Shown piece after piece: positions 1,861-33,332 of a DNA stretch of 64,000 nt. The stretch comes from a virus. How positions within the stretch are numbered: the stretch's first letter is position 1; every line of letters starts with the position of its first letter. The notes beneath the pieces are model-generated. The model was not told the origin of the DNA, searched no databases, and was given only the letters and a program-made list of their open reading frames with translations. The stretch is taken from IMG/VR virus record IMGVR_UViG_3300006175_000011, positions 1 through 64,000 of that record. One strand, 5' to 3'. The translations under genes and the position numbers were made by a program.

Positions 1861-2997
1861 TTAATCCTCGGTTTGGTCGCGATCAGTCGATTTATGGCTC
1901 AAATCTTCGCTCTGGTAATCGCGTTTCATTAACCACTCGATGTCTGATCCGGTCGCCTCGGCCTTGCACAGTTCTCGGTAGTCGCAACTGTTGCATTGGA
2001 AACCTATGTTCTGGTCTTTCTTTTTACCGAAGTTGTCCTGGATCTCTTTGGCGGTATCAACAAAGTCGTCCCAGATATTATCCACGATCCGAGGCTTGAT
2101 CGGACTGTAGAGTCGGATGAACCTGTTCTTCCGGTTTGTTTCAGCATCCGTCAGCATCTTCTTGAAGTCGGCCTTCTTGTGACCTTCCTGCTCGATCCAT
2201 GCACGAACTCGGGTCGGCAGCGTATCAATGCGAGCCTGGGAGATGCGCCCTGTGGCGGTAAGTTCACCGGGAACGTTGCATGGCTTACTACTGATGTAAT
2301 CCCACAGGATCCCGTCAATCGAGGGAAAGCCCATCTCTTCTAGTGCGCGGAAATAAACCGCGGCCTGAACTGAGCGCCAACGGTCGCTTTCGCTGGGCAT
2401 CCGACTGAACGTCTTATGCTCGATGAGCCACTTCATCTTCTTCGACTTAGCGATCATATCGATCTTGCCGGTGAACCATAGACCTTCACCAAGTTCGATC
2501 CGAAACTCATGCTCTGATGCTCGGCCCTTGTGTTCTATCGGTTTGAGCGTTCCCTCCCAATAGTCGAAGTAGTCTTCCATAATGAAACCGATGTCGGCAA
2601 GAATGTTACCATACATCTCACGTTCCTTGCGGAACATGGGACCTAGGTTCTTCTCATACTCCTTGAGTACCTTTCGCCACTTCTTGCCTTCAGCCTGTGC
2701 CTCGACAACTTCGTGAACGATGCCGCCGAACATCAGCGGGCGGCTGCGTTTCTTCTTTTGGATCCCAAGCACAAACTTGTTATGGAATGCACGACGGCAA
2801 TTTCGCCAAGTCTTTACCTTCGACTGACTGATGTTGATCTGGCCGTCAGACGTTAGAACAGTTGAGTGGTCATGGCCCGGTGCTTGATTGTGACCTATGC
2901 CGGCGCGTGCTGCCGCGATCTCCGTTGGGTTTTGTCGTGTTTGGGCTTCTTTTGCTTTGCGATCTCTTCTGCGATCTTTAACTGTTCTTCCAGCCAT
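1861..2997 (-). CDS. PD-(D/E)XK exonuclease, RecB/Cas4-like, probable Fe-S cluster
   Basis: A 378-residue nuclease. With the start at 2997 the catalytic elements are Asp180 (GKIDM) and Glu193/Lys195 (IEHKT), the PD-(D/E)XK pattern. Cys67 (NCRRAF) together with Cys335, Cys338 and Cys344 (CNSC and ELC) matches the four-cysteine layout of the AddB/Cas4 iron-sulfur clasp. It probably resects DNA ends for recombination with the Sak4-type ATPase and SSB that follow. The reading frame opens at an ATG at 3024 without a ribosome binding site. I chose 2997 because AAGGAT lies about eight bases before it. Either way the 5' end overlaps the polymerase gene by about 100 bases in another frame. The first 50 residues are basic and low in complexity. 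Confidence 0.75.
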   Translation of the reverse strand: MAGRTVKDRRRDRKAKEAQTRQNPTEIAAARAGIGHNQAPGHDHSTVLTSDGQINISQSKVKTWRNCRRAFHNKFVLGIQKKKRSRPLMFGGIVHEVVEAQAEGKKWRKVLKEYEKNLGPMFRKEREMYGNILADIGFIMEDYFDYWEGTLKPIEHKGRASEHEFRIELGEGLWFTGKIDMIAKSKKMKWLIEHKTFSRMPSESDRWRSVQAAVYFRALEEMGFPSIDGILWDYISSKPCNVPGELTATGRISQARIDTLPTRVRAWIEQEGHKKADFKKMLTDAETNRKNRFIRLYSPIKPRIVDNIWDDFVDTAKEIQDNFGKKKDQNIGFQCNSCDYRELCKAEATGSDIEWLMKRDYQSEDLSHKSTDRDQTED

Positions 2998-5489
2998 TTG
3001 CTCAATCCTTTTCCTTGTGACCATGCCCCGATCTTAGCTTCGGCTTCAATCGGTACACTCAATTCAATCTCAAAGTCTTCGAGTAACGAGGGATGACTCA
3101 TGATCTCCAATCCTCGTTTATACACATACTCGACCATATCGTTGCGAACCTCGATCAGCACAGCGTCATGAACTGTGCCGACAAGCCTGAACCAATTCCT
3201 GCTGAACTCCTCACGCATCTGAAGGGCGGCCATCAAGTTCAACTCATTGGCGAATGACTGTACTGGGCTGTTAATCGCTTGCCGTTGAGCTTCTCTGCGT
3301 TCAGGAGTGTCACGACCCCCTTGTGCAGCCGGTAGTCTACGTTTTCTACCAGACAGGCTCCGGACGTATCCATTAATCTGGGCAAACCTACGTTGCTTAT
3401 CGTGCCATTTAGGAAAGGCAGGATAGAGCTCGAAGAAAGCTTCTCGAGACGCCTGTGCTTCATCATCGCTAACGTCCACTCCGTAGTTGTCGCGGGCATA
3501 CATCTTGAACTTCTTCCACCACATGCCGTAGAGGTAGCCGAAGTTGATTGCCTTTGCTTTCTTGCGGGTTTCACCCCAGTTGATGAAGGCTTCTTTGAGA
3601 TCCTGAGTCTCCTTCCACTCGTCAACAACTCGCTTGGCTTCATCACCGCCGATGCCAAGGATATACTCGATGGCATCACTGTAATTCATTTTCTCGCCGC
3701 TGTGCAACTTAGCGGTTTTGATTACTTCCTTTCGATAGGCGGCACCACGTTCAATTTCGCGAATTGCAGTTTGCCAATGAGGGTCGCCCCCTTCATTGAA
3801 GACTCGCAACAGATTGTGCTCATCAGCGAGCTCAGCGGCAATCCGGAGCTCGATCTGCGAGAGATCCATCTCGATGAGGGTCCAACCGAGCGCCGCCGAT
3901 ATAAGAGATCTGATGCGAGGATCGCGAGGAACTTGCTGGAGGTTTGGATGCTCACAGGAAAGTCGGCCTGTAACAGTTCCATGAAGTTTGAAGACCGGAT
4001 GCAGTCTTCCGGCAACGTCAATGTAAGGTCTCCAACCTTCAATGAAAGCAGAGAGTTGTTTCTGAGCTGCTCTAACTCGGAGAAGGTCACCGACCATGGG
4101 ATGGTCAATTCGAAGTAAGACGCTTTCACTAACACTGTTCTTGCCTCCCTTCGTTTTATCGACGGGCTTGATCTTTAGGACGTTAAAGAGCAGGTCGCCT
4201 AGCTGATCGGCGCTGCCCCAGTTAATCTTCCCAGTCTTCTTATCGACCAGCTTTGCTTTACCGGCCCACTTCTCCAGTTTACCCAACGCGTCGGCGAGCT
4301 CTTCCCGAAGGTATGCTTCAGCCTCATCCATCTTATCCAGATGAATGAATACGCCTTGGTACTCAGCCTCAATGAACAGCTTGATACAGGGAACCATGAT
4401 GAGATCATGGACTCGCTTGACATCGTGGTCTTCATCGAGACCGTCCTTCAACGGCTTACGCAAAGCACGAGTGTAATAGACGTCGTGCGCCGCGTATTTA
4501 GCGTTCTTCGGAGACCACTCAGTTTTGTCCTTACCCCCGATATCCCAGTCCGCCGCGCCCAGCATCATCTGTGCAAGATACTTCAGGCCGTGAAAATCAT
4601 TCTCGTCGAGCAGGAAGTGCGCGAGCATCGTGTCGAATGCCACAGTCCACTTGACACCAAACCTGACAAGCATCCACAGGCAATCGAACTTGCCATTGTG
4701 GAAAATCATCTTGCAGTATTTGCGGATACGGATCGTCGTTAGGCGAACGATCTCTTTCAAATCCTTCGGCGACCAGATCCCCGCAGTCTCCATGGGAACA
4801 ACCCATTGTCGCTTCTTGCAGCCGAACTGCATGGCGACGACGCGCGGTAGGTTATTCGATCCGTGAGTGCCCTTGTGCTGTGCGAGCAGTTCCTTCGAAG
4901 CACGACCTGACTCGATCAACTCATCCTGCATCGTGGTAAACGGATAGAGTCGCGAGGTTTCAAGGTCGGCGGATACCCAACCCGACAGGTCCTTGAGCAT
5001 CGCTTTCACCTTGGGCCAGGTGTCTACGATGTGATAGTCTAGTTCACGTTCTTCGGGAATACCCCCGAAGTCAACGCATTCCCTTAGTCTCTGTATATCG
5101 CCCTGGATGACATCGATCCATTTCTCGTCATGGAGAGCGATGTTCGGGTGTAGAAGCGGGAGTACGACTCTTTTATCTCTTTCGATCGGCTTTCCTCGTA
5201 GCTTTGTGATGCCTTGTTGGTCGAGGAAAGCTTGGCAAGGAGTGTTCCCAAGTAGGACGACATATTTAGGATCCTTCTTTTCGAGCCGTTGCATGAATGC
5301 CGACTTGGCATTCTTAATCATGGTCTTGGTTACATTCTTGCCTTCGGCCGGTGCATTCTCCAGAACGTTTGTCCACCGAAAGTCTGACTCTTCGAAGCCA
5401 CACTTAAGCATGGCCTCCATGAGTATCTTCTTGGCGCGGGGATTGATCTCGTCGTGTTCGCCTACGACAGTGATTTGCTTTCGGCTCAC
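2895..5489 (-). CDS. Family A DNA polymerase with 3'-5' exonuclease and N-terminal uracil-DNA-glycosylase-like domain
   Basis: Replicative polymerase of the Pol I family, 864 aa. Residues 1-140 resemble the UDG superfamily (WTNVLENAP at 39-47; VVLLGNTP, a later RG and the LLHPN segment at 77-116). The usual GE-PG catalytic loop is replaced by GEHDEINP, so activity is doubtful. A DEDD exonuclease follows (Asp175/Glu177 in ADLET; HNGKFD; YAAHD). The polymerase motifs are A, DLSQIELR near 540; B, KAINFGYLYG near 648; and C, VHDAVLIEV near 770. No 5'-3' exonuclease is present. The likely start is a GTG at 5489 whose GTGA overlaps the stop of the dCMP deaminase gene. UDG-like fusions to phage family A polymerases are, as I recall, known from phages with hydroxymethyluracil DNA such as SPO1. 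Confidence 0.9.
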   Translation of the reverse strand: MSRKQITVVGEHDEINPRAKKILMEAMLKCGFEESDFRWTNVLENAPAEGKNVTKTMIKNAKSAFMQRLEKKDPKYVVLLGNTPCQAFLDQQGITKLRGKPIERDKRVVLPLLHPNIALHDEKWIDVIQGDIQRLRECVDFGGIPEERELDYHIVDTWPKVKAMLKDLSGWVSADLETSRLYPFTTMQDELIESGRASKELLAQHKGTHGSNNLPRVVAMQFGCKKRQWVVPMETAGIWSPKDLKEIVRLTTIRIRKYCKMIFHNGKFDCLWMLVRFGVKWTVAFDTMLAHFLLDENDFHGLKYLAQMMLGAADWDIGGKDKTEWSPKNAKYAAHDVYYTRALRKPLKDGLDEDHDVKRVHDLIMVPCIKLFIEAEYQGVFIHLDKMDEAEAYLREELADALGKLEKWAGKAKLVDKKTGKINWGSADQLGDLLFNVLKIKPVDKTKGGKNSVSESVLLRIDHPMVGDLLRVRAAQKQLSAFIEGWRPYIDVAGRLHPVFKLHGTVTGRLSCEHPNLQQVPRDPRIRSLISAALGWTLIEMDLSQIELRIAAELADEHNLLRVFNEGGDPHWQTAIREIERGAAYRKEVIKTAKLHSGEKMNYSDAIEYILGIGGDEAKRVVDEWKETQDLKEAFINWGETRKKAKAINFGYLYGMWWKKFKMYARDNYGVDVSDDEAQASREAFFELYPAFPKWHDKQRRFAQINGYVRSLSGRKRRLPAAQGGRDTPERREAQRQAINSPVQSFANELNLMAALQMREEFSRNWFRLVGTVHDAVLIEVRNDMVEYVYKRGLEIMSHPSLLEDFEIELSVPIEAEAKIGAWSQGKGLSKWLEEQLKIAEEIAKQKKPKHDKTQRRSRQHAPA

Positions 5490-5974
5490 GGTAGTTCTAT
5501 GACCTCATGCGAGAAATACTCAACAATATAGCCCGCTGGGGTGATAATGTAAACGCCTATATTCTTGTCCTGGAGTTTTTCGAGATGGCCATTGACTCGA
5601 TAGAGTTTCTCGAAGAACACCCGATCGATCAGGCCACAGGAGATGATCCGGTCGACGCACTCCTCGCAAGGACTGTCAGTGCAGTAGAGGTCGAACGCAC
5701 TTTTCTTGGGGTGGTTCGGCTTGAATACCTCGAGCAATGCATCGATGGCATTAGCCTCAGCGTGTAACGTCCCGCAGTTGCCCGGCACAATACCAGGACA
5801 GTGATTGCCGGCGCAGTGAGGTAGACCGGCCGCTGCTCCATTCCAGCCGATACTGACAGGCACCTTGCGATTGCGCGTTATGATAGCGCCGACGTTCAAA
5901 CGATGACAGGTGGAGCGTTTAGCCGCCACCTTCGTCATCTCCATGAACATAACTTCTCGCGATATCCTACCCAT
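5486..5974 (-). CDS. Deoxycytidylate (dCMP) deaminase
   Basis: Zinc-dependent dCMP deaminase (162 aa), converting dCMP to dUMP. The zinc and catalytic motifs are His71-Ala-Glu73 and PCEEC (Cys103, Cys106), with a further Cys/His-rich insert (HCAGNHC, about 53-59) as in T4-type dCMP deaminases. It would feed dUMP to the TS-fold enzymes encoded just upstream. The ATG at 5974 shares its A with the TGA of the preceding gene; an in-frame GTG one codon earlier is possible. The gene is tightly coupled to its neighbours on both sides by overlaps, consistent with one leftward transcript from about 9170. Confidence 0.9.
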   Translation of the reverse strand: MGRISREVMFMEMTKVAAKRSTCHRLNVGAIITRNRKVPVSIGWNGAAAGLPHCAGNHCPGIVPGNCGTLHAEANAIDALLEVFKPNHPKKSAFDLYCTDSPCEECVDRIISCGLIDRVFFEKLYRVNGHLEKLQDKNIGVYIITPAGYIVEYFSHEVIELP

Positions 5975-6843
5975 CACTGCTTCCCGAACAGCATTATGAA
6001 GTCATTGCGGAAAATATGAAGACTGCCGATCTGCATAAGAAATTTCCCGGGTCGAATGTCGTCCCACCGCGCGTCGAGAGAACGGAGTCGATCAAGGACC
6101 CAGAGAAGTAGCCGGGCGGTAAGGTACAGGTCATCACGGAAATGCCGCACGAAGTCGCAACTTCGGATATGGTAATTGATGTCAAGTCTTCCGTCGCGCA
6201 TAAGAAAGTGGTATCCAATAGTACACGGCGCACGCTTCGAACCACCCCCCGTATCCTCGGGAAACCATACCGGAAGATAGGCCTGACGGGTAAGGGGATC
6301 CGCGGATAGTAGGGATACCACGTCATTGAGGTCACCGTACTCATAGAGGATGCCCTTGTGAGGGGTGTCGGTATCCAGGTCTGTGAGTCTGATCCCATAA
6401 TCATCGGCGGTCCCAGTGGGTTCGGTAACGTGCCCGGCATACTTCGGCCAATATCGTTCCATATAGTTATGATTGAATTTGCCTCGTTCATCCAAGAACG
6501 TAGCGGCACTTTTTCCGTACGGCCAGTTCTGCCACTCTTTTCCGGGATTGATCGGGAACCCACAGACTCTCTCCTCGAAATGGTCGTCAGCCCAAGGCAG
6601 GTTGGGTTTGATATCGTCCTGCAGCGTACCAAGCGTTCCGCCGATTGCTGTGCTGGGAACCATCATCTCATCCATACTCACCCCGAAAGAGACGTGAGCG
6701 ACTTCGTGCGTAGCCATCTCGGGACGAGCACTGATATCGGATCCTTGCCACTTGTCAGTGTGTACGATCTTGCTTCGATATTGAAGCAGATGCGAGGCCT
6801 GCGTAATGGCCTGATTGAAAGTGTCGAACAATACGGGCTTCAT
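5974..6843 (-). CDS. Thymidylate-synthase-fold enzyme, probable dCMP/dUMP hydroxymethylase
   Basis: 289-residue member of the TS/deoxynucleotide hydroxymethylase superfamily. The nucleophile is Cys207 (RAPCTIGYHF) and the phosphate/nucleotide-binding segment is Arg227-Ser-Cys-Asp230. The C-terminal GSLHIF (273-278) matches GSLHVY of T4 dCMP hydroxymethylase. Asp238 occupies the place of the Asn that recognises uracil in thymidylate synthase (Asn177 in E. coli). T4 dCMP hydroxymethylase also has Asp there, in a segment that aligns here without gaps by eye. The product is therefore probably a 5-hydroxymethyl nucleotide. dCMP is the substrate suggested by Asp238, but the nearby deaminase and aGPT-PPlase-like gene also allow dUMP. 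ATGA overlap with the upstream gene and a GGAGG site seven bases before the ATG. Confidence 0.75.
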   Translation of the reverse strand: MKPVLFDTFNQAITQASHLLQYRSKIVHTDKWQGSDISARPEMATHEVAHVSFGVSMDEMMVPSTAIGGTLGTLQDDIKPNLPWADDHFEERVCGFPINPGKEWQNWPYGKSAATFLDERGKFNHNYMERYWPKYAGHVTEPTGTADDYGIRLTDLDTDTPHKGILYEYGDLNDVVSLLSADPLTRQAYLPVWFPEDTGGGSKRAPCTIGYHFLMRDGRLDINYHIRSCDFVRHFRDDLYLTARLLLWVLDRLRSLDARWDDIRPGKFLMQIGSLHIFRNDFIMLFGKQ

Positions 6844-7673
6844 TCTTCGTCCTCCTCGGGTTCTTGATAATCGTTGCGATGACCGGGGTGGTTATCGCGA
6901 AGGTATTTGGTCAATTTCTTTCGAAGCCTTCCTTTGATGCGGTTGTCGGCGTCCATCTTCACTCGAAGCGCCTGTGCGAACTTGGCGATCCCGCGGTAGT
7001 GTTCTTCGCATAGGTATCTTGCCGTCCACTTAATTATCCACTCGTAGAAATACTTATCCCTTACCTTGATCGCCTCAAGCTCAGCGATAGGGTCAGCCAT
7101 GTGAGGGATGGCGGTAACAAAATACTGAGGATGCACAGTGATGTTGGCAAAGTGGCAGGTAAGCCCCAGAAAATCCATACCAGAAAAATCAAAGTCCCTG
7201 AGCAAGACATCCCGAATAAAAACCAAGTCAGCAGGAAACTTCTTAAGAAGTTCCGTTGTTCGGTAGAATACGTCAATGAAGTACGCACCGTTCTTTCCTC
7301 CTTTGACCTGAGTGATTACCACCGACTGCAAGCAAGGCCCCATTACTGAGGCCCGCTTCGACTTCTTGATAGCATCATTCTTGACGAAGTGGTTGTAGCA
7401 GGTGAAGCCCACAGATCCGTAGGACGTCTTTGACCTACGAAGTTTCCAGAGTGTCAACGCGGCTTCGATGCTTTCCTCATGGACATAAAGTCTTTTGAGG
7501 TGAGACATCTTTGCGCCAGTATAACCGGCATCCTCAAGGATGAGTGGATCTTTATGATCCCATAGGTCATCAAATCGTATGGATTTCCCCCGAATAATTT
7601 TGCGACAACCTGAATAGAAGTCAGCCTTACGACGTGACAACTTCAAGACCTCTTTGATCCACTCATCCTTCAT
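6840..7673 (-). CDS. Second thymidylate-synthase-fold protein, divergent
   Basis: A 277-residue protein whose central part follows the TS plan: possible nucleophile Cys114 (MGPCLQSVVI), an Arg-containing nucleotide segment at 137-149 (YRTTELLKKFPAD) and a following His-Phe-Ala-Asn stretch in the place of the H-x-Y segment. Asp149 sits where TS has its substrate-selecting Asn. The Asp of the RSxD motif is Glu141. It is clearly distinct from the other TS-fold protein encoded directly downstream. Two adjacent TS-like genes suggest a specialised nucleotide modification step. The alternative is a non-catalytic partner. I cannot name the substrate. Confidence 0.55.
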   Translation of the reverse strand: MKDEWIKEVLKLSRRKADFYSGCRKIIRGKSIRFDDLWDHKDPLILEDAGYTGAKMSHLKRLYVHEESIEAALTLWKLRRSKTSYGSVGFTCYNHFVKNDAIKKSKRASVMGPCLQSVVITQVKGGKNGAYFIDVFYRTTELLKKFPADLVFIRDVLLRDFDFSGMDFLGLTCHFANITVHPQYFVTAIPHMADPIAELEAIKVRDKYFYEWIIKWTARYLCEEHYRGIAKFAQALRVKMDADNRIKGRLRKKLTKYLRDNHPGHRNDYQEPEEDEE

Positions 7674-7674
7674 G

Positions 7675-8619
7675 TTATGCGTTTAATCCATCACCGATAT
7701 AACCGGTATCAATGATCTTACCCGAGTTGTCGGCCAGGTGCTGCGTAGCCTCGGGATGAAAGATCTCATCGAAGATCGCGTTATCTTGAACGAGGTCGCG
7801 ATGATCCGGTGCTTGCCAACCGGCGGGCTTCCGAATGTCATACTTGACTTCACGGCCGCTATCCTGTGCGCCTGAGTCGTCAACAGCTCGAACCTTCGCC
7901 ATGTTAGCCGTGACGACCCGTCGCCAAGCCTCGTAGAAAGCTCTACGACCGAACTGCAAATCCGCGGTGCCCAGTATCACCCAGGCAGCATCGGCAAGAG
8001 CATCGAGTTGAAGCTCGAGGATATTGATGATATCTCGACGATCCTTGCGCTCAATGGCGTCGAGCAATTTCGGGTACTCATCCCGGTATTCGCCGGTCTC
8101 CTCGTCGTGGAACTTGACGCGGAAATCATGGAGGTCGGCCGGTAACATGCGGGGCTTACCAAGATATTCCTGACCGAACTTGGCATGGAATGCCGAGACA
8201 TCGCCGATGAAGTCCGGGAAGTCATGATCCCGAATGTGGAGGCCTCGAGTCACGGCTTCGGCCTGTGCCTTGAGAACAGTCTTGATCCAGCTCGTTTCTC
8301 CGATGGTCAATCGGCTATTCTGGAGCGGCCCCGCACTGACGAGCATATAACGAACGTCGCCGGCGTCCCCGTGTTGGAAATTAAAGGCAGCAACGACTTC
8401 ATCATCCTTGTCGGTCAAGGTAACCGAGGAGTTTTCGATACCTTGTGGCGTGAAGCGTTGACCCCATCGCTCAAGACTGGTCCAGAACATCATGCCTTCA
8501 TCGTTTCGGTAAGCAACACCGGGTACCCATTCTCCGTCGAACTCACTCTTGCCAAGCTGTTCGCCGATGTAGTGATAGAAGCCGCCATCCACATGGCGAT
8601 GCGTCGGTAGAAACGTCAT
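7675..8619 (-). CDS. DUF1653 domain fused to MazG-like nucleotide pyrophosphohydrolase
   Basis: 314 aa in two parts. Residues about 5-53 (YRNDEGMMFW and a following Leu/Phe-rich strand) match the small DUF1653 fold. Residues about 130-290 look like an all-alpha NTP pyrophosphatase (MazG/HisE type), with a helix carrying DISNI-like acids (LELQLDALADAAWVILGTA) and a Lys/Asp/Arg-rich C-terminal end (VKYDIRKPAGWQAPDHRDLV) typical of phage MazG-like proteins. Such enzymes turn dNTPs into dNMPs and can remove a canonical dNTP from the pool, a common feature of phages with modified bases. AAGGAAAG precedes the ATG. The gene is spaced by one base from the next TS-fold gene. Confidence 0.7.
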   Translation of the reverse strand: MTFLPTHRHVDGGFYHYIGEQLGKSEFDGEWVPGVAYRNDEGMMFWTSLERWGQRFTPQGIENSSVTLTDKDDEVVAAFNFQHGDAGDVRYMLVSAGPLQNSRLTIGETSWIKTVLKAQAEAVTRGLHIRDHDFPDFIGDVSAFHAKFGQEYLGKPRMLPADLHDFRVKFHDEETGEYRDEYPKLLDAIERKDRRDIINILELQLDALADAAWVILGTADLQFGRRAFYEAWRRVVTANMAKVRAVDDSGAQDSGREVKYDIRKPAGWQAPDHRDLVQDNAIFDEIFHPEATQHLADNSGKIIDTGYIGDGLNA

Positions 8620-8629
8620 CGATCTTTCC

Positions 8630-9121
8630 TTATGCTTGAGTGTATTGTTGATAGAAGTAGACGGTCGCGATTAGCTGATCCATGTCGTCGCCGATACGAT
8701 AGCAGAAGTGGGCATACTGTGCAGCCCACAGGCGATACTCCTGCAACAGGTTGTTATACTTCTCGTTGACCATCTTCATGTGGTCAGCGGTATCATGATC
8801 TTTCTCGACATGACCGTCGAGACCTCGTTGCTGCGCATCGCAGTAGATCAGGATGGGTTTGGCCTCATAGAAGATCATCTGACGACCAGGTGTAATAGGA
8901 TCACCCTCGAGACGAAACTTACCATATATCGCATTCGATACCACAGGATGCCTGACGAAGATCGTTCGTTCCATGTTTGCGTACCCGTCCACGCGAGCAT
9001 TTATTTCGTCGTCCGACCGCGGTGGCCCTTCACTTTCTTGCACACGCATGGTCATATACTCGCCGAACGCTCGGGCCAGCGTCGACTTGCCGGAGTTGTC
9101 CATACCTTCAATTACAATCAT
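8630..9121 (-). CDS. P-loop kinase (dNMP kinase or 5-hydroxymethylpyrimidine kinase type)
   Basis: A small (163 aa) P-loop kinase with Walker A GMDNSGKS at residues 6-13, in the thymidylate-kinase-like style. Its position as first gene of the operon with a MazG-like enzyme and two TS-fold proteins suggests one of two roles: phosphorylating a 5-hydroxymethyl dNMP (as T4 gene 1 does), or phosphorylating hydroxymethylated bases in DNA (as 5-hmdU DNA kinases do in thymidine hypermodification). The sequence alone does not separate these. The ATG at 9121 follows AGGGGCA and lies about 45 bases downstream of the leftward promoter. Confidence 0.65.
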   Translation of the reverse strand: MIVIEGMDNSGKSTLARAFGEYMTMRVQESEGPPRSDDEINARVDGYANMERTIFVRHPVVSNAIYGKFRLEGDPITPGRQMIFYEAKPILIYCDAQQRGLDGHVEKDHDTADHMKMVNEKYNNLLQEYRLWAAQYAHFCYRIGDDMDQLIATVYFYQQYTQA

Positions 9122-24500: not shown

Positions 24501-24606
24501 CACGAAGCCTTGGGAGTTGCCGATCAGGGATCTGCTCAAGATCAAGGGTATTGGGCCGGCGGCGATTAAGGAAATTGCTCAAGTAGCGGAGAAACTCTGT
24601 GTCTGA
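24391..24606 (+). CDS. RNA polymerase alpha-CTD-like helix-hairpin-helix protein
   Basis: 71 aa. Two blocks match the C-terminal domain of the RNA polymerase alpha subunit. LSTKVRNALHRN corresponds to the first helix (bacterial consensus LSVRAYNCLKRA, with the conserved Asn and Leu kept and the DNA-contacting Arg replaced by Lys). DLLKIKGIGPAAIKEIAQVA corresponds to the helix-hairpin-helix (DLLKIRNLGKKSLEEI). GGAAAG precedes the ATG. It overlaps the hypermodification gene by eight bases. It could bind UP-element DNA or compete with host alpha-CTD for activators. Alternatively it is simply a small HhH DNA-binding protein serving the base-modifying enzyme encoded next. Confidence 0.6.
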   Translation: MEEKAYNSLSTKVRNALHRNRAKSFPPLTGFHSPLVDTKPWELPIRDLLKIKGIGPAAIKEIAQVAEKLCV

Positions 24607-25492
24607 TATGGAAAAGGTTTATTGGCGCTTTGCAAATGAGCGCCTGCGCATGTATCACCGTCGGCTCAAGGGTAAGGAGTCACTGACGAAGGATTCCATT
24701 CTTCGGGATCATCGGTTCACCAACGCCTATCGCGCCAGCGACCGCGTCAGTCAATACCTGATCCGTGAAGTTCAATACGGCGAAGAAGAACGCAAGAAAG
24801 AACTGTTCTTCCGGACATTGCTCTTTAAGATCTTCAATAAGATCGAGACCTGGCAAATGATCCAAGGCCATTTCGACGAACCTATCACTAGTCATGACCT
24901 TAAACATATTCGCAAGCTTCTGGTGAAACACGGGGGCAAAGGCCTTTACTCCGCAGCGTACATCCAGGCAAGTCCGGCCGGCAAGGGTGTCAGTAAAGCT
25001 ATCGCACACATTGATCTATTGACAGCTCTCATGGATTTACCTCTTTGGAAGAACGTCCGCGATGCCCGATCACTCGAGGAAGTTTTTCTTCACATGAGGT
25101 CTATCCGTAGTTTCGGTGATTTCCTTGCCTACCAATATACTATCGACTTGAATTACTCTACGATGATCGACTTCGACGAGAACGACTTCGTAGTTCCTGG
25201 GCCCGGAGCACTGGACGGTATCAGCAAGATTATGCCCGGCACGCATCCCGTGAAGGCGATACGCCATATGACCAAGCGTGCCCGCGATGAGATGGGTGAT
25301 ACCCTCTTCGGTAGACAGCTTCACCTGATCGATTGTCAGAATCTCTTCTGTGAGATCAGCAAATACACCCGCGTTAGTCATCCGACGATCCAGGGCGTAT
25401 CAGGTAGGACCACGATCAAACAGAACTATACGCCACACTCAGAGCCTTTGCCTCGACCATTCTTTCCGCCGAAGTGGAACCTCGAGTATTGA
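24599..25492 (+). CDS. DNA base hypermodification protein (aGPT-PPlase / HMUDK-helical family)
   Basis: 297 aa. The pattern FANERLRMYHRR, TKDSILRDHRFTNAYRASDR, then LFFRTLLFKIFNKIETW and, later, GDFLAYQYTIDLNYS and LIDCQNLFCEISKY is the signature I associate with the alpha-glutamyl/putrescinyl-thymine pyrophosphorylase and 5-hmdU-kinase helical families. Members act on 5-hydroxymethyluracil-derived bases in DNA, adding amino acids or other groups in phages with hypermodified thymidine. Together with the TS-fold enzymes, kinase and MazG-like proteins it points to modified DNA. The start is a GTG at 24599 or the in-frame ATG at 24608. It overlaps the alpha-CTD-like gene. The exact reaction cannot be read from sequence. 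Confidence 0.7.
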   Translation: MSDMEKVYWRFANERLRMYHRRLKGKESLTKDSILRDHRFTNAYRASDRVSQYLIREVQYGEEERKKELFFRTLLFKIFNKIETWQMIQGHFDEPITSHDLKHIRKLLVKHGGKGLYSAAYIQASPAGKGVSKAIAHIDLLTALMDLPLWKNVRDARSLEEVFLHMRSIRSFGDFLAYQYTIDLNYSTMIDFDENDFVVPGPGALDGISKIMPGTHPVKAIRHMTKRARDEMGDTLFGRQLHLIDCQNLFCEISKYTRVSHPTIQGVSGRTTIKQNYTPHSEPLPRPFFPPKWNLEY

Positions 25493-27633: not shown

Positions 27634-27832
27634 TGGGATGGTGAACGTAGTTCTACCACCGGAGGCGGTTGACTTTCTCATTCGTAACTGCGATGACAGC
27701 ATCAAGCAAGGTCAACGTCTGCTGATGCCTTTAGCTGATGTCGAATTGACGCCGCCTCAAAGGGACGACATTCGGAGCATGATGACCAAGTTTGAGATCA
27801 TCAAGGCCGCGGCGGAAAGGTCATTACGATGA
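27620..27832 (+). CDS. Small helical protein, unrecognised
   Basis: 70 aa; ATG 27620 is chosen because AAGG lies nine bases upstream, with other in-frame ATGs at 27614 and 27638. It contains LPPEAVDFLIRNCDDSIKQG and a helical C-terminus. Overlaps the ends of both neighbours; the last bases overlap the ligase start (ATGA). No family recognised. Confidence 0.5.
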   Translation: MSILNGMVNVVLPPEAVDFLIRNCDDSIKQGQRLLMPLADVELTPPQRDDIRSMMTKFEIIKAAAERSLR

Positions 27833-28728
27833 TAAAGCGCCCGATGAAGGGACCTCAGGCTACGGACCTGACAATCATCAAGTTTCCTGTGATCGCTTTT
27901 CCCAAGATTGACGGATTCCGCTGCATCCTCGGCACAGAGCCGATGACGAGCCGTTTATCTCCTTTTCCTAACAAGCACTTCATGAAGGAAGCGTCCGGCC
28001 TTTTGGACTGCGGTGCCTTACTCGATGGCGAAATCGTCTGTGGCAGTAAAAAGAAGAAAGGCGTCCTCGGGCGCACGAGCAGCGGACTGACGACCCGAGA
28101 AGGCGAGCCCGATTGGACTCTATGGGTATTTGATGCACCGAGCGTCGGCTTCTTTCGTGTTCGTTTCCTCGAGGCTACTCAAATTGTCAAGGATCTTGAC
28201 CATCCCCGAATAAAGATCCTAAAGGGTCGGATCATTGAAAACTTGCCATCCTTGAACCGGTTCATTGAGGAATGTCTGGCCAAAGGTTATGAGGGTGTAA
28301 TCACCCGTAATCCGGAAGGTTTCTACAAACAGGGTAAGTCCACACTCCGTGAACAAGGCATGCTGAAGATTAAACCCTTCGAAGATGCCGAGGGTCGAGT
28401 TACAGGTTACTTCGAAGAGGAGAAGAACAACAATGAAGCAAAAAGGGAAATCACCGGCAAGCTCAAGCGATCAAGCGCCAAAGCGGGTAAAGTCGGAAAA
28501 GGACGTCTCGGAGGACTCATACTCGAGGATGTTAAATCAGGCGTTGAGGTCCGGGTGGGAGGCGGCTTCACCCAACAGGAACGGATCAACCTCTGGCCAA
28601 TTCGTAAAAGCCTCCTCGGCAAACTTGTCAAATACAAGAAGCAGCAAGTCGGAGAAAAGGATAAGCCGCGCCATCCGGGCTTTCGCGAATTTATTGGGTG
28701 GCGACCGGATTGGGATCTGGCAGAATAA
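27829..28728 (+). CDS. ATP-dependent DNA ligase
   Basis: 299 aa. Motif I is PKIDGFR with the adenylated Lys at residue 26. Further nucleotidyltransferase motifs are LLDGEIV, a WVFDAP strand, EGVITRNP and MLKIKPF. A C-terminal OB-like part follows (LILEDVKSGVEVRVGGGFTQ). The length fits the compact phage ligases of the T7 type. It would seal nicks after replication and recombination. AAAGG lies upstream and the ATG overlaps the previous stop. A new promoter follows directly after the gene. Confidence 0.85.
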   Translation: MIKRPMKGPQATDLTIIKFPVIAFPKIDGFRCILGTEPMTSRLSPFPNKHFMKEASGLLDCGALLDGEIVCGSKKKKGVLGRTSSGLTTREGEPDWTLWVFDAPSVGFFRVRFLEATQIVKDLDHPRIKILKGRIIENLPSLNRFIEECLAKGYEGVITRNPEGFYKQGKSTLREQGMLKIKPFEDAEGRVTGYFEEEKNNNEAKREITGKLKRSSAKAGKVGKGRLGGLILEDVKSGVEVRVGGGFTQQERINLWPIRKSLLGKLVKYKKQQVGEKDKPRHPGFREFIGWRPDWDLAE

Positions 28729-30223: not shown

Positions 30224-30321
30224 TGCATCAATCGACGTTTTTGATCGATCCTGAGGCGTCTGAGGCGCGTCTCAGGTGCATTATTCGACGTTGCGACGTA
30301 TCAACGTGCGCGATTGCGTGA
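30220..30321 (+). CDS. Possible micropeptide, 33 codons
   Basis: Starts at an ATG overlapping the previous stop (ATGATG), with GAGG nine bases upstream, and reads MMHQSTFLIDPEASEARLRC to a stop at 30321. The 3' end overlaps the convergent MazG-like gene. Kept at low confidence because it is short and shows no recognisable motif. Confidence 0.35.
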   Translation: MMHQSTFLIDPEASEARLRCIIRRCDVSTCAIA

Positions 30322-30618
30322 CGACAACGCCTTGGGCGTCTTTTTCACGACGGCCTTGATGTCACCCATCCACTTCACAAATCTCTTGCGTTTTGAAGCC
30401 GCTCGGCGTTCGATACGCTCACGATCCAGTCCATTGCGATCGATGAAATAGTTGAGGGCATTGAGAACGTCAGCGGCTTCGTCCTCGACCGACAGGATGA
30501 CCGAACGTTTGCGAGCCGGGTGCTTTCCCGTTGGGAATGCCGCAAGCTTCATCAACTCCACACCCAGTTCATTGAGTTCTTCCTGCAGCTTGATGATACC
30601 CCGCCATTGCTTCGCCAT
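30301..30618 (-). CDS. MazG-like nucleotide pyrophosphohydrolase
   Basis: 105 aa with the MazG core: KLQEELNELGVELMKL (the first metal-binding Glu pair) and SVEDEAADVLNALNYFIDR (the second acidic motif EDEAADV). A basic C-terminal helix follows. It should hydrolyse dNTPs to dNMPs. It is the second MazG-type protein in the window (the other at 7675), and the only leftward gene between 20300 and 32015. AGGAGG precedes the ATG, and a promoter lies just upstream. Confidence 0.7.
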   Translation of the reverse strand: MAKQWRGIIKLQEELNELGVELMKLAAFPTGKHPARKRSVILSVEDEAADVLNALNYFIDRNGLDRERIERRAASKRKRFVKWMGDIKAVVKKTPKALSSRNRAR

Positions 30619-32097: not shown

Positions 32098-32481
32098 TCA
32101 GTTGAGGTCGATCTTCTTAAAGCTGATCCCTCGTTCCCGAAGCATCTGCTCGAAGTGTTCAACGAAGCTTCGTTCCTCACCTGTGCTAACTATCAAGCCC
32201 ATGTCGGCTAAAACAGTCTGGATGATCTGTGCACTTGGCGTTTGGTCACACAGACTCAATCCTTGGAAGAACAAAGCCACCTTATCTCTGTCATTGTCGA
32301 ACCACTCTTTCAAGTAATGCTGCATAGCTCGACGTGAACAATGCGGGTCGCCGCATTCGCAAGGGAGAGTCTCGACATGATCGTAGAATTGCTGAGCTCC
32401 CGGGTACCTCTTGACCATGTCGAGGAAGACTTCCTGACAAGAGGATCCCAGAATAACGGCAAGGTCAAGTATCTCGATCAT
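32098..32481 (-). CDS. Cysteine-containing protein of unknown function
   Basis: 127 aa, coupled to the upstream ThyX gene by a four-base overlap. It contains a Cys/His cluster (LPCECGDPHCSRRAMQHYL) that could bind a metal, followed by a helical C-terminus. No family recognised. Confidence 0.55.
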   Translation of the reverse strand: MIEILDLAVILGSSCQEVFLDMVKRYPGAQQFYDHVETLPCECGDPHCSRRAMQHYLKEWFDNDRDKVALFFQGLSLCDQTPSAQIIQTVLADMGLIVSTGEERSFVEHFEQMLRERGISFKKIDLN

Positions 32482-33332
32482 ACGCGTGTCTCCATTATGG
32501 CTTCATGAGGAATAGTCTTGCGGTACTGTATCCAACCCTCAAAATTGCCGTGCAGTTGAGGATGTCCCCAACTTTCATCATCTTTCCACTTACCCGAATT
32601 TACTCGAGTATCCGGCGTTGCCTGATGTTCCGCTGGTGAGGCGTGAACCGGTTGGCTCACAACGAGTTTCTCGTAACGCGCCATCTCTGAGACGAAGTCC
32701 GCCTTACCGTCGAAGGGTGCATAGCTGAGCCTTGCGCTCCGAGCTGTGGAGATCATCTTCAACTCGTCAAGTGTGTAGCCGCCCTCTCGTTCGTCCTCGG
32801 TAACCCAAGGCAAGTGCCAACTGCCCGGCTGACGAAGCACGGGTTGAGATTGTTCCATTGCCTTAAGCATCAACTGCGCGAGCTCGTCAAGTTCAGGTTG
32901 AGCGTATTCGCTGATCCGTAGAGTGAAGAAATTCTTCCACCATGTTGCGGTCACTTGTACGTCGATCCAGCCGAACCACTCGAGCGGTCGATTGGCCCAC
33001 TGTTTGTGAACACCTAATGCCTGAAGCTTAGACACTGCAATTCTAGTATCTTTCGCAAGGTCGATCCAGATGGATTGAGCCTCATATTGCTGAGCAAGTG
33101 TCAGCTTCTCCGTAGATTGCATACCCGGCTTATTCATTCCAAACTGGGGAACGAAGACCTCCTCGGTCAATAGGATCTTGCTAGGCACTGCCCGACTTGA
33201 CCGAGCATTGCGACTGAAGACTCGATGCGTCATCAGCTCAGCGTGGATCGCACGCCAGTATCTCAAGTGAAATGTCGTCAGCCTGATACCCTGTGGGCTA
33301 ACGCTATCGGCGATGATCTTTACTTCGGCCAT
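32478..33332 (-). CDS. thyX: ThyX-type flavin-dependent thymidylate synthase, permuted motif order
   Basis: 284 aa. Near residue 35 it has HAELMTHRVFSRNARSSRAV, corresponding to the ThyX signature RHRxxSxNxxSxR (first Arg replaced by Thr). WWKNFFTLRISEYAQPELDE resembles the helix that in canonical ThyX lies near the C-terminus. The block that is normally N-terminal (ARLSY, then KLVVSQPVHASPAEHQA, like the canonical ARVSY and HxSPFEH) occurs at the C-terminus instead. Phage proteins of this type are usually annotated ThyX. The reaction would be dUMP to dTMP with FAD, methylene-tetrahydrofolate and NADPH; a variant one-carbon reaction is possible. It starts inside the end of the preceding leftward gene and overlaps the next by four bases. 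Confidence 0.75.
   Translation of the reverse strand: MAEVKIIADSVSPQGIRLTTFHLRYWRAIHAELMTHRVFSRNARSSRAVPSKILLTEEVFVPQFGMNKPGMQSTEKLTLAQQYEAQSIWIDLAKDTRIAVSKLQALGVHKQWANRPLEWFGWIDVQVTATWWKNFFTLRISEYAQPELDELAQLMLKAMEQSQPVLRQPGSWHLPWVTEDEREGGYTLDELKMISTARSARLSYAPFDGKADFVSEMARYEKLVVSQPVHASPAEHQATPDTRVNSGKWKDDESWGHPQLHGNFEGWIQYRKTIPHEAIMETRV

Follow-up and report, generated by a model that had tools for sequence, protein, structure and literature searches.

Two adjacent thymidylate synthase-fold genes in a recurrent phage cassette that probably modifies cytosine

Replacement of cytosine is a known route by which phages escape restriction, and the locus described here raises the question of whether a compact operon with two adjacent genes of the thymidylate synthase (TS) fold belongs to such a pathway, and which base it alters. 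The locus lies in a 64-kb stretch (the window) of the 67,016-base IMG/VR virus record IMGVR_UViG_3300006175_000011, and consists of five tightly packed open reading frames (ORFs) at positions 5486-9121, as placed by a preliminary description of the sequence, all on the minus strand. In order, they encode a thymidylate kinase (TMPK)-like kinase, a MazG-like pyrophosphohydrolase, two TS-fold proteins (TS2 and TS1), and a deoxycytidine monophosphate (dCMP) deaminase, and are followed by a DNA polymerase I (PolA) with a uracil-DNA glycosylase (UDG)-like domain. This five-gene kit probably exchanges cytosine in the viral DNA for a chemically altered cytosine, and a T4-style cytosine-replacement pathway built on a new clade of TS-fold enzymes is the likely explanation of the locus. 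Judged from its sequence, the cassette looks like a cytosine-modifying system of a known general kind, equipped with a new enzyme pair.

The base is indicated by a single residue of the TS fold. Asn177 of Escherichia coli TS, whose numbering is used for this position, selects deoxyuridine monophosphate (dUMP), while Asp selects dCMP, as in T4 (D179) and MilA (D186) (PMC6400193, PMC5175136, and PMC8670742); the last of these also reports that modified-cytosine contigs are distinguished from unmodified ones by Asp rather than Asn at this position. The catalytic Cys and Asp at 177 are present in every aligned member of both families: in TS1 (41/41) they are Cys207 (codon 6223..6225, minus strand) and Asp238 (6130..6132, minus strand), and in TS2 (40/40) they are Cys114 (7332..7334, minus strand) and Asp149 (7227..7229, minus strand), which are also invariant in a wider TS2 set of 74-76 members (74/74 and 76/76, respectively). 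Asp is likewise found in T4 dCMP hydroxymethylase and AfhB, while Asn occupies the position in the aligned uracil-type enzymes, namely M6 gp58, the Goe9/SPO1-type dUMP hydroxymethylase, and the TS of phage LuckyBarnes. Since both TS-fold enzymes of the cassette carry Asp, cytosine is the most likely base, a prediction that is well supported by sequence. Domains tied to modified cytosine in PMC8670742 include TS, dCMP deaminase, DNA ligase, and phosphoribosyl-ATP pyrophosphohydrolase; the window encodes proteins of the first three kinds together with a MazG-like protein. The initial suggestion that the operon replaces one pyrimidine is thus supported.

TS1 (289 amino acids, 5974..6843, minus strand) matches PF00303 (3.1e-7) and phrog_160 (1.7e-28), and its AlphaFold2 model is confident (predicted local distance difference test, pLDDT, 90.9). 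The best Foldseek match of this model is T4 dCMP hydroxymethylase (4.7e-13), with MilA and AfhB also at the top, among thymidylate synthases, and the TS1 profile finds AfhB as its best match among PDB sequences. The protein forms a deep clade of its own with a support of 100/100, in a tree where several reference rows are long branches. The residue following the catalytic Cys is Thr or Ser (Thr in T4 dCMP hydroxymethylase and AfhB), and a candidate for the folate-activating Glu (E91, T4 Glu60), matched by helix position rather than by superposition, is kept in 40 of the 41 members. By these features TS1 resembles an enzyme of the TS fold that modifies dCMP. According to PMC6400193, the signature of hydroxymethylation is an Asp three residues ahead of the catalytic Cys (Cys-3) plus a Ser-x-Tyr motif, and the D145N mutation abolishes the reaction. 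Where this signature wants Asp (or Glu), TS1 has Arg204 in all 41 members (codon 6232..6234, minus strand; counterpart of T4 Asp145), and His-x-Tyr replaces Ser/Thr-x-Tyr (T4 Ser94-Tyr96), His125 being present in 39/41. Among the enzymes compared, Cys-3 is Asp in T4, M6, Goe9, LuckyBarnes, and AXL3, Glu in AfhB, Asn in the Xp12-type enzyme of phage YB23, and Leu in E. coli TS; it is Arg in none.

The neighboring TS2 (277 amino acids, 6840..7673, minus strand) belongs to no Pfam family, its sole PHROG match being phrog_34294, of unknown function, and its sequence finds no match in the PDB either singly or as a profile. Its assignment to the TS fold comes from a confident AlphaFold2 model (pLDDT 89.8) and the Foldseek matches of that model, so that the two adjacent TS-fold genes of the preliminary description are borne out, one through protein families and the other through predicted structure. 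In the PDB, the model is closest to AfhB, a dCMP hydroxylase from phage HY126 (4.4e-6, prob 1.00); next come thymidylate synthases, MilA, and T4 dCMP hydroxymethylase, the TM-scores being moderate. A total of 81 PDB matches lie at E<=0.001, and among the 50 listed nearly all are TS-fold enzymes. The best match in a viral library is an uncharacterized PMBT14 protein (TM 0.76), presumably its counterpart at the same cassette position. The model suggests that TS2 keeps a nucleotide-binding core (Cys114, Arg138, Asp149) and bears extra C-terminal helices, and it seems to lack the folate-handling segment that holds W80 and Y94 of E. coli TS (the set tested was E58, W80, and Y94), as read from the order of helices and strands rather than by superposition. 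The possibility that TS2 is a dead or unrelated protein was rejected because the wider family shows no variation at the Cys, Arg, and Asp.

The adjacency of two TS-fold genes had been regarded as unusual, a view contradicted by its recurrence. The same gene order is annotated in the Brevundimonas phages Polewnik and Strzyga, the Pseudomonas phages PMBT14 and Lebethron, Serratia phage Serbin, Yersinia phage P744, a Desulfofustis phage, Mycobacterium phage Muddy, Gordonia phage GTE2, and Streptomyces phage KimJongPhill, in some cases with small inserted genes, and it is also kept in dozens of viral contigs. Such conservation across dozens of distantly related genomes excludes a cassette assembled by chance. 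Scanning viral contigs by profile yielded 46 TS2 loci, and wherever the contig is not truncated on the TS1 side (45 loci) TS1 lies downstream; in the reverse survey, TS2 is present at 69 of 80 TS1 loci, or 69 of the 75 uncut ones, the other five being cut at the contig start without a visible TS2. TS2 therefore looks dependent on TS1, which is mostly, not always, accompanied by TS2. The pairing is not a fixed one, since at one locus (L010) TS2 is 89% identical to that of the window and TS1 only 56%. In actinophages, the protein at the TS2 position is a distant TS2 relative (hhalign 87.7%, E 3.4e-6). A literature search of incomplete coverage found no paper on a paired TS-fold cassette. If the prediction is true, many cultured phages, including Muddy and Gordonia phages, carry an uncharacterized DNA base made by an uncharacterized enzyme pair, whose members are currently annotated as thymidylate synthase (TS1) and hypothetical protein (TS2); the predicted cytosine modification is directly testable on existing isolates.

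Variants of the arrangement were also seen. Of the six uncut TS1 loci where no TS2 was seen, three (L128 2958-5117, L131 4339-5697, and L139 4821-5939) have upstream of TS1 an ORF that resembles, by eye, a C5-cytosine DNA methyltransferase and that might be a stand-in for TS2. Five other loci (L137 7041-7883, L124 7721-8488, L116 7008-7577, L144 6809-7501, and L106 8198-8740) hold an additional TS2-like ORF, bringing three TS-fold genes into one region.

Read from gene content, gene order, predicted folds, active-site residues, and clade, the substrates and the direction of the steps would be as follows. The MazG-like protein (314 amino acids, 7675..8619, minus strand; phrog_671, 7.8e-13), whose position is conserved and which is a candidate deoxycytidine triphosphatase, would convert deoxycytidine triphosphate to dCMP; it was first described as DUF1653/MazG, of which the MazG-like part stands and the DUF1653 part is unconfirmed, a Pfam search returning nothing at E<=1. 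TS1 would bind dCMP, with Cys207 as the nucleophile and Asp238 reading the cytosine, and would place a folate-borne one-carbon unit on C5. TS2, whose gene overlaps that of TS1 by four bases, as the TS1 gene does that of the deaminase, would be a further TS-fold protein that binds dCMP and assists, whether as a partner subunit or by catalyzing a second step. The thymidylate-kinase-like deoxynucleoside monophosphate (dNMP) kinase (163 amino acids, 8630..9121, minus strand; phrog_761 thymidylate kinase, 1.5e-8), which has a visible P-loop and the same position in related cassettes, would phosphorylate the modified dCMP on its way to the triphosphate, which the adjacent polymerase would incorporate, possibly in place of cytosine throughout the genome. 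This polymerase (2895..5489, minus strand; family A, PF00476, 1.1e-68) is the last gene of the conserved order. The dCMP deaminase (163 amino acids, 5486..5977, minus strand; PF00383, 4.1e-16; phrog_174, 7.1e-31), together with a ThyX protein, would maintain the supply of deoxythymidine monophosphate (dTMP), and the modified base, once in DNA, may become a substrate of an HMUDK_hel protein. Kinase, deaminase, and polymerase occur in the order originally given. The N-terminal domain of the polymerase belongs to the UDG superfamily (PF03167, 5.5e-7).

As in the cassette, a pyrophosphohydrolase, a dNMP kinase, and a dCMP deaminase come together in the T4 system (gp56, gp1, and cd), whose dCMP hydroxymethylase (gp42) shares with TS1 the fold, the catalytic Cys, and the dCMP-selecting Asp; however, Asp145 and Ser94 are replaced in TS1 by Arg and His, the cassette has a second TS-fold protein, and no TAGT glycosyltransferase was found in this genome. 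The modified-cytosine contigs of MetaGPA (PMC8670742) likewise carry an Asp177 TS along with domains of a dCMP deaminase, a pyrophosphohydrolase, and a ligase, but in the excerpted text the highlighted ones pair the TS with a carbamoyltransferase, not found here, and no second TS-fold partner is mentioned. It can be suggested, tentatively and with some doubt, that TS1 and TS2 form a two-protein system, found widely among phages that infect Proteobacteria and Actinobacteria, that adds a C5 group to dCMP by undescribed chemistry, with Arg in place of the water-activating Asp, His in place of Ser, and a partner that has only the nucleotide-binding core.

Several observations weigh against a T4-style pathway built on this pair. 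TS1 lacks the signature of PMC6400193 and, with Arg204 and His125 in place of its residues, fails a defining test of a hydroxymethylase; 5-hydroxymethylcytosine, one of the two products first envisaged, is for this reason a possible product rather than an established one. The match of the TS2 model to TS is only moderate (TMq 0.46), and aligning the TS2 profile with that of TS1, or with a mixed TS profile, gives no significant score, although the alignment is in register at the Cys and Asp. At six uncut TS1 loci TS2 was not seen within the fetched stretch, so it is not always needed. Finally, neither a TAGT glycosyltransferase nor a carbamoyltransferase was found in the 44 cassette genomes searched.

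This last result, along with the missing water-activating Asp, would fit a cytosine pathway whose product is simply 5-methyl-dCMP, the case of Xanthomonas phage Xp12. The dCMP methylase of the Xp12 type, as encoded by phage YB23 (a phage with both Xp12 primer sites), is also a TS-fold enzyme with Asp177 and without Asp at Cys-3, and a dCMP deaminase gene is adjacent to it. However, its Cys-3 is Asn where TS1 has Arg, TS1 falls outside its clade, and no TS2 was detected among the neighbors tested; a 5-methyl-dCMP end point is thus unlikely, though worth keeping in mind. The published Xp12 primer had no match in the viral contigs.

The pathway could also end in 5-hydroxy-dCMP formed via flavin, with TS1 or TS2 as the putative hydroxylase, as proposed by analogy with AfhB of Escherichia phage HY126 (PDB 9iqu, 9iqc). 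AfhB is the best PDB match of TS2 by fold and of the TS1 profile by sequence, and it shares with TS1 the TS fold, Asp177, and Thr after the Cys. Against this, AfhB has Glu at Cys-3 and Thr-x-Tyr versus Arg and His-x-Tyr, and TS1 retains the folate-type Glu (candidate E91); the flavin route appears quite improbable. Another difference is that no TS pair is recognized beside AfhB in its annotation.

Thymidine hypermodification as in M6, in which TS1 would make 5-hydroxymethyl-dUMP that enters DNA, is phosphorylated by HMUDK, and is then decorated, would give a role to the aGPT-PPlase gene noted at 24599 (24599..25492, plus strand; 297 amino acids). This gene is real, matching PF18723 (HMUDK_hel; 7.9e-79, 265 bits), and HMUDK_hel is common to M6 and this genome; the deaminase would provide dUMP, and the nearest HMUDK_hel relative is in Brevibacterium phage LuckyBarnes, whose TS has Asn177. 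The M6/SPO1-type dUMP hydroxymethylases, although of TS fold, have Asn177 and Asp at Cys-3, while TS1 and TS2 have Asp at 177. Moreover, a search that finds both partners in M6, the P-loop 5-hmdU DNA kinase (PF18748) and ADDT (PF18724), finds neither at E<=1 in the 67-kb record, and HMUDK_hel, present here, was found in none of the 41 other cassette genomes searched, many of them fragments. An M6-like route is therefore very unlikely; with Asp177 in both proteins and with PF18748 and ADDT not found, 5-hydroxymethyluracil, the other base first envisaged, was set aside. In a cytosine-replacement pathway, HMUDK_hel would be a possible add-on that may further modify the base, or may be unrelated to the cassette. 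A pattern search of the viral contigs found no relatives of it. In LuckyBarnes (L016 6994-9456), HMUDK_hel lies beside two TAGT-family glycosyltransferases and the Asn177 TS, without a PF18748 kinase, which suggests that it can occur without its P-loop partner.

That TS1 is an ordinary thymidylate synthase, in a cassette that merely raises deoxythymidine triphosphate, as its label in many phage annotations and the dCMP deaminase of the operon might imply, is scarcely credible given Asp177 in all members, a TS1 fold nearer to T4 dCMP hydroxymethylase and MilA than to most TS, and a separate ThyX in the genome.

The ThyX-like flavin-dependent thymidylate synthase (284 amino acids, 32478..33332, minus strand; PF02511, 5e-10; phrog_85, 7.6e-82), reported earlier and present, is a candidate separate source of dTMP, which fits TS1 not having that role; ThyX is matched in 16 of the 44 genomes searched, this one included. 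The second MazG-like protein noted at 30301 is also present (105 amino acids, 30301..30618, minus strand; phrog_4856, 1.2e-6), its membership in the pathway being uncertain. The window also encodes an ATP-dependent DNA ligase (27829-28728; PF01068, PF14743), whose domain is among those that PMC8670742 ties to modified-cytosine contigs.

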